Origin: Synechococcales cyanobacterium PMM_0073
GTDB lineage: Bacteria; Cyanobacteriota; Cyanobacteriia; Elainellales; Elainellaceae
Assembly (NCBI GenBank): GCA_949127695.1
Contig: CASBQH010000403.1
Location: 1 to 20,230 of the forward strand
Length of the DNA stretch: 20,230 bases
Direction: 5' to 3'
Below, in pieces: positions 3,342 to 15,193 of this stretch. The position numbers were made by a program, and so were the translations under genes. The number at the start of each line of letters is the position of its first letter. Position 1 is the stretch's first letter. Under the pieces are notes generated by a model. It searched no databases, was not told the origin of the DNA, and worked only from the letters and a program-made list of their open reading frames with translations.

Positions 3342-3614
3342 TCAACAGATTTGGGATGAATATTGCAATTGCGCTTTAATGCGTCTCAGCAGGTTAGCGC
3401 TCTTGGCGTTTTGTAGCACAAACTCATGCTGAACTACGTCAGTGTGAATCGCAAATGGGCGGTCTTGCTGCTGCGCTTCTAGGGCTGCGACAGTTGCCCA
3501 ATTGTGAATAGAGCAGCCAATGGCAAACTGCAAATACTGAGATCGCTGAATCGCCTGACTCAGAGATCTGCGTAATTTGAAATAGCGATCTGCTAGCGAA
3601 ATTCTGGGTTCTGC
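3342..3614 (-). pseudogene. Possible decayed small gene, hypothetical
   Basis: A minus-strand frame is open from 3614 down to the stop at 3342 (about 90 residues). It has protein-like composition (ADRYFKLRRSLSQAIQRSQ, then AALEAQQQDRPFAIHTDVVQ), but no ATG; the only usable start seen is an internal TTG at 3533. Just upstream in another frame is the protein-like stretch KYLEQNPEFR, ending at a TAG where this frame could take over. This suggests a small gene that has lost its start through a frameshift. I do not recognise the family. It may instead be a chance open frame. Confidence 0.3.
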
Positions 3615-3746
3615 TCAAGATATTTGCCACTTTTCTACTATAAGGATGATGCCAATTTTGATTAAGTTCGTCATGTTGGTAGGGAGTTCTGCCAAATCAC
3701 CGCAGACTCGCCCAAAACGCGCCCCATCCCCAAATGGAGTCTGATC

Positions 3747-4160
3747 ATGAGCGATTCTAACGTTCAACCCAGTCGTCAAAAAGCCATTCTCAAATGGGTG
3801 CTAGGATTTTCTATGATCACAGTCGGCATTCTACATTTTGTCTATCCCGATCAGTTCGCCAAGATCGTGCCACCGCCGCTGCCTGCACCAGTTGCGCTCG
3901 TCTATATCAGCGGCCTGTTCGAGATTCTGGGCGGCATTGGCCTGTTGATTCCTGCCTTGAGCGTTCTCGCAGCCTGGGGCTTAATTGCCCTATTTATTGC
4001 GGTTTTTCCCGCCAATATTAACCAAGCCTTTAATAGCATTCCGATTGATGGCATCCCCCATCACCCTTGGCTCTACTGGGTAAGGCTACCCTTCCAGGCT
4101 GTTTTGATTGCCTGGGCCTATTGGTATACCAATCAAGAGCGCGAGCCGCAAAATCTGTAG
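3747..4160 (+). CDS. DoxX-family integral membrane protein
   Basis: A 137-residue protein with about four hydrophobic segments (roughly residues 15-33, 48-68, 70-88 and 110-128). The opening after the first helix, GILHFVYPDQFAKIVPP, and the second helix with LFEILGGIGLLIP are typical of small DoxX-like membrane proteins, which are often about 130-150 residues. The family is linked to redox or thiol stress in some bacteria, but no reaction can be assigned here. The ATG is preceded by a GGAG about eight bases upstream. It stands alone and converges on the L,D-transpeptidase gene 24 bases downstream. Confidence 0.82.
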   Translation: MSDSNVQPSRQKAILKWVLGFSMITVGILHFVYPDQFAKIVPPPLPAPVALVYISGLFEILGGIGLLIPALSVLAAWGLIALFIAVFPANINQAFNSIPIDGIPHHPWLYWVRLPFQAVLIAWAYWYTNQEREPQNL

Positions 4161-4184
4161 CCCGACTGGATAGCTGCCGAGTAG

Positions 4185-4763
4185 CTATGGCTCCACAATC
4201 ACCGAAGTCCCCATCTTCACCGTTTGATAGAGCGATCGCACATCTTCGTTATACATTCGCACGCAGCCATGTGATGCGGCTCGACCCACCGATTCGCGGG
4301 TCGGCGTACCGTGAAAGCCAATATAGCTACGGCCATTTGTCCAGAAGCCAATCCAGCGTTCGCCCAGTGGGTTATCGGGACCCGCTGGGACAATTTCGCC
4401 TGTAAAAGGATGCACCCAGGTTGGATGTTCCTGCATATCAATCACCTGCCAGCTGCCCATGGGCGTTTCCCAACCCGACCGCCCCACTGCGACCGGATAG
4501 CTGGCAATTTGCTTACCGCCCTGATAGACATAGACCCGGCGTTCGCTGCGCTTGAGCACGAGCCGGATGCTGGCCTCTGGCACTGGCAGCATAGGCTTGA
4601 GCGGCGGCAGCTCCGGCAGGATCATCACAGGGATGGGAATTGCCTGAGCCGCTGCGTTGACCGCCTTGGCCGGAAGCTGCGCCCAGCCCAGTATCAGCGC
4701 CGAACCTAAGGCCGAACCCAAGGCTGAACCCAGCCAGATTTGCGAAAGCAGCCGCAGCTTCAT
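4185..4763 (-). CDS. L,D-transpeptidase (YkuD fold), exported
   Basis: 192 residues. The N-terminus is a signal peptide or anchor (KLR, then a hydrophobic run to about residue 35). The catalytic domain spans about 65-191 and carries the YkuD signature: His 151 in GFHGTP, then SHGCVRM with His 165, nucleophile Cys 167 and Arg 169. Such enzymes form 3-3 peptidoglycan crosslinks or attach proteins to peptidoglycan in the periplasm and are the usual carbapenem-sensitive, penicillin-insensitive class. The signal peptide contains three copies of Gly-Ser-Ala-Leu (residues 12-23) encoded by a 12-bp tandem repeat. No LysM or other wall-binding domain is present. The gene stands alone; a possible -10 box lies about 45 bases upstream of the start. 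Confidence 0.93.
   Translation of the reverse strand: MKLRLLSQIWLGSALGSALGSALILGWAQLPAKAVNAAAQAIPIPVMILPELPPLKPMLPVPEASIRLVLKRSERRVYVYQGGKQIASYPVAVGRSGWETPMGSWQVIDMQEHPTWVHPFTGEIVPAGPDNPLGERWIGFWTNGRSYIGFHGTPTRESVGRAASHGCVRMYNEDVRSLYQTVKMGTSVIVEP
4695..4730 (-). repeat. 12-bp in-frame tandem repeat in the signal peptide of the L,D-transpeptidase
   Basis: Three near-identical 12-base units encode GSAL-GSAL-GSAL at residues 12-23. The number of units could change the length of the hydrophobic core without breaking the frame. Confidence 0.8.
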
Positions 4764-4806
4764 GACTCAGTCCCCTAACGCTCAGCAGAAATTGCTCGAC
4801 GCGCTA

Positions 4807-4812
4807 ATTATA
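4807..4812 (-). promoter_or_regulatory. Possible -10 box for the L,D-transpeptidase gene
   Basis: The minus strand reads TATAAT at this site, about 45 bases before the ATG at 4763. The matching -35 is poor (TGTCAG at 4835-4830, 17-base spacer), so the assignment is weak. Confidence 0.3.
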
Positions 4813-4893
4813 AAACCATTTGTTCTGGTCTGACATGATCAGGTCTGGCATTGCCTGTACGATAATATGGCAACATCTGGATGCTGAGCGAGC

Positions 4894-11157: not shown

Positions 11158-11225
11158 CAGTCTGAGCTTTAGGCTGGCTGTAAGTTTAGTTAATTTCATT
11201 GTTAATTCCACTGTTCACAACTTTT

Positions 11226-11579
11226 ATGCTAGAAGCTTTTGTTCTGATTACGATCATCTGCGGGTTTTTTGGCATCATCTTTAAAAAAAATCTGTTGATG
11301 AAGATTATTTCCATGGATGTGATGAGTACTGGAGTCGTTGCCTATTACGTTTTAATTGCCGCACGCAGTGGTCTATTCACGCCAATCCTGGCCGATTTTA
11401 GCGCTGCTTCACCTGCTTCGCCCGTCGCATACGCTGATCCGGTTCCTCAGGCGGTTATTCTAACGGCAATTGTGATTGGCTTTTCAATTCAGGCGCTGAT
11501 GCTAGTTGGCGTCATGAAGCTGTCGCATGATAATCCGACGCTAGAGATCAGTCAGGTTGAGCTAAACAATACGCCATGA
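11226..11579 (+). CDS. mrpC: Mrp-type cation/proton antiporter subunit C
   Basis: 117 residues from the ATG at 11226; an in-frame TTG at 11199 would add nine residues. The protein is a NuoK-like three-helix subunit: helices at about 2-20, 25-47 and 72-95, with FFGIIFKKNLLMKIISMDVMSTGV before the second helix and PQAVILTAIVIGFSIQALMLVGVMKL forming the third. This matches MrpC/MnhC, which are about 110-120 residues. It opens a run of seven genes joined by short overlaps; its stop overlaps the mrpD start by four bases (ATGA). The complex exchanges Na+ (or another cation) for H+ across the cytoplasmic membrane. Confidence 0.88.
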   Translation: MLEAFVLITIICGFFGIIFKKNLLMKIISMDVMSTGVVAYYVLIAARSGLFTPILADFSAASPASPVAYADPVPQAVILTAIVIGFSIQALMLVGVMKLSHDNPTLEISQVELNNTP

Positions 11580-13003
11580 ACAGTCTGACGATTGTCTGGA
11601 TCGCCTTACCGTTCTTTTTAGGGTTTGTTGTTTATCTAATTCCGCGTCTAGATCGCTACCTTGCCCTAGCGACAGGCTTAGCCTCTGCAACCTACGCGCT
11701 GCTGCTGTTTTTGGCGGCTTCGCCGCTGCGGCTCCAGCTGCTTGATCAGTTTGGGGTAACGCTGCTGCTCGACTCGCTCAGCGGCTACTTTATTCTGACC
11801 AACGCGCTGGTGACAATGGCTGTGGTGCTTTACTGCTGGAGCAGCGACAAGACTGCGTTTTTTTACGCACAGCTGATCATCCTGCATGGCAGTGTAAACG
11901 CCGCCTTTGCCTGCACAGATTTTATTAGTCTTTACGTGGCTTTAGAGGTCAGCGGCATTGCGGCATCGCTGCTGATTGCCTACCCGCGTACCGATCGCTC
12001 AATTTGGGTGGCGCTGCGCTATCTGTTTGTCAGCAATACGGCCATGCTGTTCTATTTGGTGGGCGCAGTGCTGGTTTATCAATCTAGCCACACCTTTAGC
12101 TTTGTTGGCCTGCGTCAAGCTCCGCCGGAAGCTCTAGCGCTGATTTTTATGGGGCTGCTGGTGAAGGGCGGCGTGTTTGTCTCTGGGCTATGGCTGCCCC
12201 TGACCCACTCTGAGTCAGAAACGCCCGTCTCTGCCATGCTGTCGGGCGCAGTCGTGAAGGCTGGCGTCTATCCGCTGGTGCGAGCCGCGCTAGAGGTGGA
12301 GGAGCTAGATCCGTTAATTCGCAGCTTTGGTGTTGGAACAGCTCTGCTGGGCGTAGCCTACGCGGTATTTGAAAAAGACACCAAGCGAATGCTGGCCTTT
12401 CACACCGTTTCGCAGCTCGGCTTTATCCTGGCAGCGCCAGAGGTAGGCGGCTTCTATGCGCTAACGCATGGACTGGTCAAGTCAGCGCTGTTTCTAATTG
12501 CCGGATCTTTGCCCAGCCGCAGCCTCAAAGACTTGCAGCATCAGCCGATTGATGCGCGGATCTGGCTGGCGCTGGCTGTAGCGAGCTTTTCAATCTCAGG
12601 GTTCCCGCTGCTCTCTGGCTTTGGTGCCAAGGTTTTGACGATGCAGAGTTTGGCATCCTGGCAGGTGATTGCCATGAATTTGGCGGCTTTGGGGACGGCG
12701 ATCTCGTTTGCCAAATTTATCTTTCTGCCAAGCGGCGGGGAGCAAGCGGTAAAACCTGGGTTTTGGCTAGCCTTGGGGCTGCTGCTGGGCGGGTTGGTGG
12801 CGGCCAATCTGGTCTACATTGAAGCCTATACGGTGGCCAATATTATCAAGCCTCTGGCAATCATTGCAGCGGGTTGGCTGCTGTATTGGCTGCTGTTTCG
12901 CCGTCTTACGGTCAAGTTACCAAGGCTGCTGGAGCAATTTGATCATCTGATTGGCGTGATGAGCCTGAGCTTGGTGCTGCTGTTTTGGATGGTGCTGGCA
13001 TGA
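11576..13003 (+). CDS. mrpD: Mrp-type antiporter subunit D (NuoN/NdhD-like)
   Basis: 475 residues and about 13-14 helices, the proton-translocating class shared with NuoL/M/N. The conserved charged residues of the channel are present: Glu 124 in YVALEVSG, Lys 197 in LVKGGVFVSGLWLP, Lys 228 in GAVVKAGVYPLVR and Lys 302 in THGLVKSALFLIAG. The motif THSESETPVSAMLSG is the usual HAxAPTPVSALLSG region. Length is close to that of MrpD (about 490). Only one such large subunit is encoded in this cluster, whereas the canonical Mrp has a second one in MrpA. It overlaps mrpC and mrpE by four bases each. Confidence 0.92.
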   Translation: MNSLTIVWIALPFFLGFVVYLIPRLDRYLALATGLASATYALLLFLAASPLRLQLLDQFGVTLLLDSLSGYFILTNALVTMAVVLYCWSSDKTAFFYAQLIILHGSVNAAFACTDFISLYVALEVSGIAASLLIAYPRTDRSIWVALRYLFVSNTAMLFYLVGAVLVYQSSHTFSFVGLRQAPPEALALIFMGLLVKGGVFVSGLWLPLTHSESETPVSAMLSGAVVKAGVYPLVRAALEVEELDPLIRSFGVGTALLGVAYAVFEKDTKRMLAFHTVSQLGFILAAPEVGGFYALTHGLVKSALFLIAGSLPSRSLKDLQHQPIDARIWLALAVASFSISGFPLLSGFGAKVLTMQSLASWQVIAMNLAALGTAISFAKFIFLPSGGEQAVKPGFWLALGLLLGGLVAANLVYIEAYTVANIIKPLAIIAAGWLLYWLLFRRLTVKLPRLLEQFDHLIGVMSLSLVLLFWMVLA

Positions 13004-13392
13004 TTGGACATTTGATATTCCGACTGGCAATTTGGTTCTTGCTCACGGCTAGCCTCAGCCCGATTAATATCCTGATTGGTTTTACTGTCGCGCTGCTCTT
13101 GCCGCGTCGCTACACCGAGCCAGCCACATTGCGAGACTGGCTGCAAGTGCTTTGGAAGATTCTGCTGGCGATTCCCCTTGCCTATTTTGAAGCCTTTGAA
13201 ATGATGGTTCGCCCGCATGATCAAGAAGATATTGTTCTAGAGCGCGTGCCATCTCAGCGTTCTCCCCAGCTGATCTTTTTAGATGTATTTTTAATCACCT
13301 TTACTCCCAAAACAATCGTGCTGAGATTTCACAATGATTGCTATGAAGTCCATCGGCTGCGGCCTAAGATTAGCCCCAGGAGCAAGCCATGA
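13000..13392 (+). CDS. mrpE: Mrp-type antiporter subunit E
   Basis: 130 residues starting at the ATG that overlaps the mrpD stop by four bases; a longer form from 12985 is less likely. Two hydrophobic segments lie at about 5-32 and 52-68, followed by a soluble domain. The segment LQVLWKILLAIPLAYFEAFEMMVRP and the later FLITFTPKTIVLRF (in other species TLTPGTVxLxV) are typical of MrpE/MnhE. The conserved threonine-proline of that strand is kept. MrpE supports assembly or activity of the complex in other bacteria. The stop overlaps mrpF by four bases. Confidence 0.88.
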   Translation: MIGHLIFRLAIWFLLTASLSPINILIGFTVALLLPRRYTEPATLRDWLQVLWKILLAIPLAYFEAFEMMVRPHDQEDIVLERVPSQRSPQLIFLDVFLITFTPKTIVLRFHNDCYEVHRLRPKISPRSKP

Positions 13393-13640
13393 CGCTGATT
13401 TTAATTGCGATGATTTTGGCGCTGCTGATTCCAATTTATGAAGCCTGCAAGGATGAAGATATTTGGCAGAAAATGTTGGCCTTAGCCAGCATTGCCACCA
13501 AAACGGCAATGATGAGTCTGTTTATTTCGGTCTTGCGAGACGACTGGATGATTGGAGTAGTTGCTGTAATTATCTTAAGCGTTGGCAATGCTGGGCTGAT
13601 GCTGTTGGCACATGTGATTCGACGGATGCATGAAGCATGA
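13389..13640 (+). CDS. mrpF: Mrp-type antiporter subunit F
   Basis: 83 residues with three hydrophobic segments (about 2-17, 28-48 and 52-78). It has the MrpF pattern: a short first helix, a charged turn (YEACKDEDIWQKMLAL, equivalent to RGPTxxDRxLAL), and two further helices ending in RRMHEA. It starts on the ATGA overlap with mrpE and ends on the ATGA overlap with mrpG. Typical MrpF length is 85-95 residues. Confidence 0.8.
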   Translation: MTLILIAMILALLIPIYEACKDEDIWQKMLALASIATKTAMMSLFISVLRDDWMIGVVAVIILSVGNAGLMLLAHVIRRMHEA

Positions 13641-13915
13641 TTAATTTCCTCAGCTATTTTTGTATGGGCGTAGGGCTACTGTTCTGGTTTTGGGGCACAG
13701 CCTACCTGCCGAGTCGGCGCTCTGTGCTGTTTAAGCTGCATATGCTATCGATCTCAGATACGCTTGGCTCAATTGCGATTGTGGTAGGGCTGCTGCTCAA
13801 AATCCCCGGCGAATAGCCCTTGCTAATTCTGGCCATTCTGACGCTCGCCGTCTGGAATACGACGCTGGGCTATGTCTTAGCTTACTGTGCCACCGGAGAC
13901 AAACCCCATGACTGA
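13637..13915 (+). pseudogene. mrpG: Mrp-type antiporter subunit G, interrupted by an in-frame TAG
   Basis: The reading frame starts on the four-base overlap with mrpF and would give 92 residues. It has the MrpG core: GTAYLPSRRSVLFKLHMLSISDTLGS, a second helix IAIVVGLLLKIPGE, and a third, PLLILAILTLAVWNTTLGYVLAYC. Codon 60 (13814-13816) is TAG, exactly between GE and PLLILAI, where related proteins have Trp (as I recall, REWPLLIL). A single G-to-A change in TGG would produce it. The sequence after the stop stays fully protein-like to the proper end at 13915, so the lesion is recent, a sequencing error, or read through. The remaining 59 residues lack the third helix. The final TGA overlaps the next start by eight bases. 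An in-frame TTG at 13820 could allow reinitiation. Confidence 0.85.
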
Positions 13916-14534
13916 TGCCCTGACTAGCGCTGCCCCAGTCGATATCTATACTTACTTTATTGTGGCGCTGCTGCCGCTCTCTGCCTGTATGCTGATCTTC
14001 CAGGTCAACCCGTATCACGCCTTGGTGCTGCGGGGCATCCTCGGTGCAATTGCGGCTTTGGTCTATGCGGTCTTGGGCGCAGCTGATGTAGCCTTAACCG
14101 AAGCGCTGATGGGCACCATGCTGGCGATTACGCTCTATGCGGTGGCGGTGCGTTCGTCGCTGGTGCTGCGGCTGGGCGTGATCAATCAGCTGGCAGATCG
14201 GCCAGGAGATCAGCCGCTGGAGCCGCTACTCGCCGAACTGCGAACCATCTTTGGTCGGCGTCATCACCTGCGCCTGGAGCTAGTGCCCTATCCTGATCGA
14301 GCCGCACTGCATCAGGGGCTAATGGCTAAAGAGGTTCACGTTACCTGTGTCGTTCCGTCATTAGAACTGGCTCAAGACAGCAGCGCTTCGCCTGCTTCTC
14401 TGCCGGTTTCCGCTCAGATTACCTATCAGACGACTACTCGCCTTAAGTATCTCTATGAGATTATGCAGGCTGAACTCTCTACTGCTAAAACGCAGCTCAG
14501 CTATCTAGATATAGCCAAGGAAGTGCAATCATGA
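13908..14534 (+). CDS. DUF4040 (MbhD/MrpA C-terminal-like) antiporter subunit
   Basis: 208 residues from the ATG that overlaps the mrpG stop by eight bases; an in-frame upstream start at 13887 is less likely. Residues about 8-85 form three helices with GAADVALTEALMGTMLAI, the hallmark of DUF4040, the region that in classical MrpA lies after the NuoL-like part and in MBH hydrogenases is subunit MbhD. The remaining 120 residues are soluble and unlike classical MrpA (AELRTIFGRRHHLRLELVPYP... TTTRLKYLYEIMQAELSTAKTQL). They look like a cyanobacterial extension. Small proteins of this kind are named MrpA in some cyanobacteria, so I leave the symbol open. It overlaps mrpB by four bases. Confidence 0.82.
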   Translation: MTDALTSAAPVDIYTYFIVALLPLSACMLIFQVNPYHALVLRGILGAIAALVYAVLGAADVALTEALMGTMLAITLYAVAVRSSLVLRLGVINQLADRPGDQPLEPLLAELRTIFGRRHHLRLELVPYPDRAALHQGLMAKEVHVTCVVPSLELAQDSSASPASLPVSAQITYQTTTRLKYLYEIMQAELSTAKTQLSYLDIAKEVQS

Positions 14535-15193
14535 AATGGCTCTATGTGATGGCTGGAATTGCGCTATTTGTTAAAATGCTGATCATCCCAAATCCCATTC
14601 CTGATCTGCTTCAGAGTTCTATCGTGGATCTGGTGGTACAAGACAGCGGCGTGCCCAATGCAGTTTCGGGGATCATTTTCCGCAATCGGCTCTATGACAC
14701 AATTTTAGAAGTGGTGGTGTTTACAATTGCCATTTCCGGCTGTAGTTACCTGCTAGCAAACGAACAGCCTGCGCCCACTGTGCATCAATTTACCGATCAG
14801 CCTTCAATTGTGCTGGCGCGGCTGGGCGCGACCATTGCGGCCTTGGTGGCCTGCGAGCTGGCGATTCGGGGGCATTTGAGTCCCGGCGGCGGCTTTGCGG
14901 CTGGAGTGGCAGGTGGCACGGCAATTGGCCTCGTGGCCATCACTTCGCCTGCCGACTGGATGCAGGCAGTCTATCAGCGCTGGAGAGCGGCGGTTTGGGA
15001 GAAAGTTTCGGTGCTGCTGTTTATTCTGCTGTCGGTCATGACGCTAGTGGGTCTAGAATTGCCGCATGGTGGGCTGGGGACGCTGTTTAGCGGCGGCATG
15101 ATTCCGCTGCTGAATATTTTGGTGGCGCTCAAAGTAGCGCTGGGCTCTTGGGCAGTGATTCTACTGTTTATCCGCTATCGAGGGCTGCTGTAG
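14531..15193 (+). CDS. mrpB: Mrp-type antiporter subunit B, with an N-terminal MbhE-like region
   Basis: 220 residues. Residues 1-90 contain NAVSGIIFRNRLYDTILEVVVFTIAI, matching MbhE/the last part of classical MrpA. The second part begins near residue 95 and carries the MnhB signature RGHLSPGGGFAAGVAGG, followed by three helices ending LGSWAVILLFIRYRG. So one gene combines what are two domains in other systems. It is the last gene of the operon. A nine-base repeat (GTAGGCTGC, twice) straddles its stop codon. Confidence 0.88.
   Translation: MKWLYVMAGIALFVKMLIIPNPIPDLLQSSIVDLVVQDSGVPNAVSGIIFRNRLYDTILEVVVFTIAISGCSYLLANEQPAPTVHQFTDQPSIVLARLGATIAALVACELAIRGHLSPGGGFAAGVAGGTAIGLVAITSPADWMQAVYQRWRAAVWEKVSVLLFILLSVMTLVGLELPHGGLGTLFSGGMIPLLNILVALKVALGSWAVILLFIRYRGLL

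Follow-up and report, generated by a model that had tools for sequence, protein, structure and literature searches.

The stretch of DNA analysed here (the window; 20,230 nucleotides) is contig C403 of a draft genome assembly (G000; 3,607,093 bases in 529 contigs, 77.75% complete). At positions 11199–15193 it carries an mrp operon whose genes are closely spaced, run in one direction and follow the order C-D-E-F-G-(MbhD/DUF4040)-B (Table 1). Sixty of the 71 loci compared, the window counted among them, have this order, which places the window's genes with the cyanobacterial mrp operons, mrpF being assigned by position and tblastn instead of Pfam. In one review's account, mrp operons of cyanobacteria have duplicated C/D or B genes (PMC5703873); the window shares their gene order but, unlike those duplicates, has a single mrpD, as do most of the loci that we compared. 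Judged by its translation, mrpE more likely begins at the ATG than at the upstream TTG. The initial annotation had described the operon as intact apart from mrpG, and the other six frames are indeed open.

Table 1. Features of the mrp operon and of the interrupted mrpG frame (positions in the window).
Feature	Position	Strand	Evidence and remarks
mrpC, intact	11199..11579	+	PF00420, 4e-22; start TTG 11199 uncertain
mrpD, intact	11576..13003	+	PF00361, 8.1e-34
mrpE, intact	13000..13392	+	PF01899, 3.6e-6; ATG 13000 preferred over TTG 12985
mrpF, intact	13389..13640	+	No significant Pfam match; named from tblastn hits at the corresponding position of related operons
mrpG frame, broken at codon 60	13637..13915	+	PF03334 match; translation
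In-frame TAG, codon 60 of mrpG	13814..13816	+	Direct reading; aligned codon TGG in 93/98 other loci
TTG, proposed reinitiation codon	13820..13822	+	Sequence listing; no Shine-Dalgarno-like sequence upstream
GGAG, likely ribosome-binding site of the DUF4040/MbhD gene	13895..13898	+	Sequence; function inferred
DUF4040/MbhD-like gene (MrpA C-terminal part), intact	13908..14534	+	PF13244, 2.6e-14; P0157 shares start
mrpB, intact	14531..15193	+	PF04039, 1.4e-20; own stop is TAG

Codon 60 of mrpG reads TAG, in frame with the ATG at 13637; direct reading and translation thereby confirm the amber codon reported initially. Beyond it the frame remains open as far as the TGA at 13913–13915, which lies in an 8-base overlap with the ATG of the DUF4040/MbhD gene. 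Codons 1–59 belong to the MnhG family (PF03334; 2.1e-10, 41.1 bits against a cut-off of 23.4), codons 62–92 alone match it weakly and below the cut-off (0.09), and the whole frame, its one TAG included, scores 54.4 bits in a six-frame search of the genome; with a TAG at codon 60, the PF03334 domain frame is an interrupted one. This search returned a single MnhG match, the one with the TAG inside, and thus no second copy of MrpG in the assembly. The earlier claim that MrpG-like sequence continues after the TAG down to the overlap is borne out by translation and by alignment: an MrpG from the same genus can be aligned across the stop, with identities of 14/20 residues in the upstream flank and 15/20 in the downstream flank, so the continuity of the frame is more than chance. 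In its matches on both flanks and its place between mrpF and the DUF4040/MbhD gene, the window's mrpG resembles MrpG/MnhG/PhaG (PF03334) of Mrp-type CPA3 antiporters; it differs from them in being broken at codon 60, its first piece stopping short of the presumed third helix.

Among 98 other loci (a count in which some genomes are represented twice), the codon aligned with codon 60 is TGG in 93, GTT in two, and CTT, TTA and ACC in one each. The tryptophan that had been claimed for related proteins is therefore usual, but with five loci encoding Val, Leu or Thr it is not universal. When mrpG is aligned with its close relatives, the best database match is P0001, a 92-residue protein that is encoded on a contig of 9,778 bases and recorded in the sources ncbi and lgn. 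It is intact, has Trp at position 60 and shares 90 of 92 residues with the read-through translation; both mismatches lie upstream of the TAG, and codons 61–92 show no residue difference. The truncated 59-residue MrpG (P0121), on the other hand, is listed for one contig alone, the window's own. The neighbouring DUF4040 protein of the window (P0156) occurs in identical form on two contigs, and its closest relative, another DUF4040 protein (P0157), is 94% identical to it, starts at the same place and, its longest contig also measuring 9,778 bases, probably shares a contig with P0001. At 14300–14534 of the window, the DUF4040 protein and P0157 are near-identical except around residues 152–192, where they differ in length by five residues.

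Across the family, MrpG is present in 26 of 36 genomes, and it is uninterrupted in all of these save the window's genome, with its TAG, and one with a frameshift (i.e., 24 intact). The latter (G031:C116:11211-11470, a draft 82% complete) has its mrpG split at around codon 45, and the second piece contains a TGA.

Mid-gene stops and the decoding of TAG

Since conserved MrpG sequence is still encoded after the TAG, full-length MrpG might be made by readthrough, through either a suppressor tRNA or a recoded TAG, as had been suggested. We regard this as very unlikely. Release factor RF1 is intact (519.7 bits; cut-off 423.25), and TAG, far from being avoided, is the commonest stop codon, closing 67 of 135 homology-supported frames (TAA 35, TGA 33) and 7 of the window's 19 genes, including mrpB of the same operon. 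Structured RNA around the TAG was likewise not found, as shuffled sequences fold equally well (z -0.08). A CUA anticodon occurs at none of the 39 tRNA places found by Infernal (37 named by ARAGORN, the other two anticodons read from the sequence), nor in the two tRNA genes that ARAGORN alone adds, both on contig C269. This result covers a genome only 78% complete, and the tRNA set is itself incomplete, because tRNAs for Trp, Lys, Ile, Tyr and Cys are absent from it; a suppressor might be missing in the same way. Contig C269 also holds, at about 3522–4846 (L137, L146), a 1.3-kb array of some 11 tRNA genes or tRNA-like stretches, of which one or more have an odd T-arm insertion. Such an array might hide a suppressor, but the two tRNA-like hits left unnamed by ARAGORN have anticodon loops that we read as UAG (Leu) and UGU (Thr).

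A recoded TAG would be expected in many genes. From the genome we took 61 contigs or contig parts, 593,159 bases in total and the window among them, and compared these with 80 stretches of the same-genus genome G002 (1,506,740 bases); the best non-overlapping matches comprised 169 alignments and 144,888 bases. Before filtering, the matches listed held many stops, the majority of them in ORFs that were antisense or in another frame. The filtered set held 13 in-frame stops, of which nine were weak (eight near alignment ends, one opposite a gap) and four strong. Two of the strong stops (L179) were discarded because their ORF is an alternative frame of a 360-residue frame, and a third (L155:1730) lies within a 123-residue ORF of doubtful reality. 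The mrpG TAG is thus the only clear mid-gene stop in ~145 kb of homology-supported DNA, drawn from 61 of the 529 contigs, some of them cut, with one further and doubtful candidate. The reverse census of G002 gave six stops, four of them strong (raw counts), so the window's genome is not unusual in this respect. Among the G002 sequences, a 440-residue alignment at 89% identity contains two in-frame TGA codons (L240:17241 and 17370), which may point to a broken gene or to a different frame.

Taken with the presence of RF1, the lack of a CUA tRNA in the assembled contigs and the prevalence of TAG as a stop, this leaves amber readthrough of mrpG unsupported. None of our results points to unusual decoding, and the TAG is most likely an ordinary single-base nonsense change or an error; ruling against recoding keeps a false lead off lists of alternative genetic codes.

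Translation downstream of the stop

The initial annotation had also offered reinitiation at a TTG (Table 1); two pieces of MrpG might then together form a working subunit. The TTG does sit in the same frame, 3 bases past the TAG, and the presumed third helix begins close to the break. Yet there is no Shine-Dalgarno-like sequence before this TTG, which is simply a Leu codon (the position is Leu in 8/8 intact sequences aligned), and no relative in the family has an MrpG split by a stop, the only other broken copy being the frameshifted one. Such a split subunit is, in our judgement, highly improbable.

Polarity on the DUF4040 gene and mrpB had been suggested as well, and here the case is weaker than proposed. 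The DUF4040 gene has its own GGAG, 9 bases ahead of its ATG. A Rho protein above the cut-off was found in 0/20 genomes (the window's genome and 19 relatives); 19 of these 20 gave weak matches that stayed at or below 40 bits (cut-off 509), while 8 of 14 control genomes passed. Cyanobacteria are described as natively lacking Rho (PMC5100998), and Rho-dependent polarity on the two genes is, on these sequence grounds, unlikely. What stands is a possible loss of coupling: mrpG overlaps the next gene in 86 of 89 loci (starts chosen automatically), by exactly 8 bases in 47, and because this overlap is the rule among relatives, translational coupling from mrpG to the DUF4040 gene may be reduced.

Nonsense mutation or consensus error

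With readthrough and reinitiation unsupported, a one-base error and a fresh nonsense mutation survive from the explanations listed at the outset. We lean slightly toward a real, recent single-base nonsense change; that the TAG is instead a one-base assembly or sequencing error, the organism's own mrpG being intact, is a serious if less probable alternative. These weightings are judgements, not measurements.

The 24 uninterrupted copies among the 26 family genomes with MrpG, together with the residue identity to P0001 over codons 61–92, favour a real mutation, and, as the remainder of mrpG is undecayed, the change would be young. An undecayed operon is, however, also expected under a consensus error, and the TAG has been seen in a single contig of a single draft assembly. 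An error would further fit a closest relative whose mrpG is intact and whose DUF4040 gene starts at the same place, a truncated MrpG confined to the window's contig while the identical DUF4040 protein is on two, and an incomplete assembly in 529 contigs. Against it, the TAG site has no homopolymer, and a substitution error would have needed the majority of reads. Nor does the same aligned set contain a credible frameshift among the candidate pairs examined. A scan gave five pairs (L179/L200, L155, L212/L179 and two in L190), of which L179/L200 falls in the region of the discarded alternative-frame ORF, L155 is the same doubtful ORF as above, and one of the L190 pairs is antisense to two ribosomal-protein-like frames. 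The few mid-gene stops elsewhere in the genome also argue that the assembly is not grossly error-ridden. The stop frequency itself agrees with either explanation: by our estimate, one clear stop per ~145 kb is compatible both with about one base error per 10,000 and with new pseudogenes arising at an ordinary rate.

Single-nonsense pseudogenes are known in bacterial genomes. The window's mrpG resembles them in having one stop, a gene otherwise undecayed and a dispensable function; it differs in that its TAG may instead be a draft-assembly error. A non-exhaustive literature search found no published account of this mutation.

Predicted effect on the antiporter, and its dispensability

If a one-base nonsense change did arise recently at codon 60 in this strain, the product would be a protein of 59 residues, without about a third of MrpG and, by position, without the third membrane helix. 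MrpG proteins are described as having three transmembrane helices (PMC5703873, PMC9568556), the third of which carries a proline that Bacillus-type Mrp requires for its activity (PMC7419157). The loss of helix 3 would follow from the position of the TAG, as our hydropathy plot did not resolve helices 2 and 3; a single-sequence search of the PDB gave no MrpG relative, only a chance match to an antibody.

The Mrp complex would then presumably be inactive or badly impaired. One published description has the MrpABCD subcomplex as not active, and the same source reports an MrpG point mutant that had no antiport activity and yet complemented sodium sensitivity in E. coli (PMC5703873), so the loss of function may be only partial. 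Translation of the DUF4040 gene and mrpB would probably continue from the start site of each gene, perhaps at a reduced level, since termination would no longer take place at the overlapping start. It is also conceivable, if improbable, that the TAG is real and tolerated, and that a two-piece MrpG, or readthrough at a low level, tunes how much active Mrp complex is made.

Ten of the 36 family genomes are without MrpG, and the same ten are without MnhB and an above-cut-off MbhD match; six of these ten are among the 27 genomes at least 90% complete. The operon is patchily absent across the family (f1), also inside genera, three of which (g4, g17 and g19) are each mixed. The window's genome has, in addition, eight matches to the Na/H exchanger family PF00999, four of them nearly full length, as other antiporter candidates. 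Given these ten genomes without the operon and the eight PF00999 matches, a null mrpG is plausible in nature.

The significance of the finding is small, and if the TAG is an error it amounts to a remark on draft quality. If the TAG is real, it would add to the indications that some filamentous cyanobacteria can do without the Mrp antiporter.
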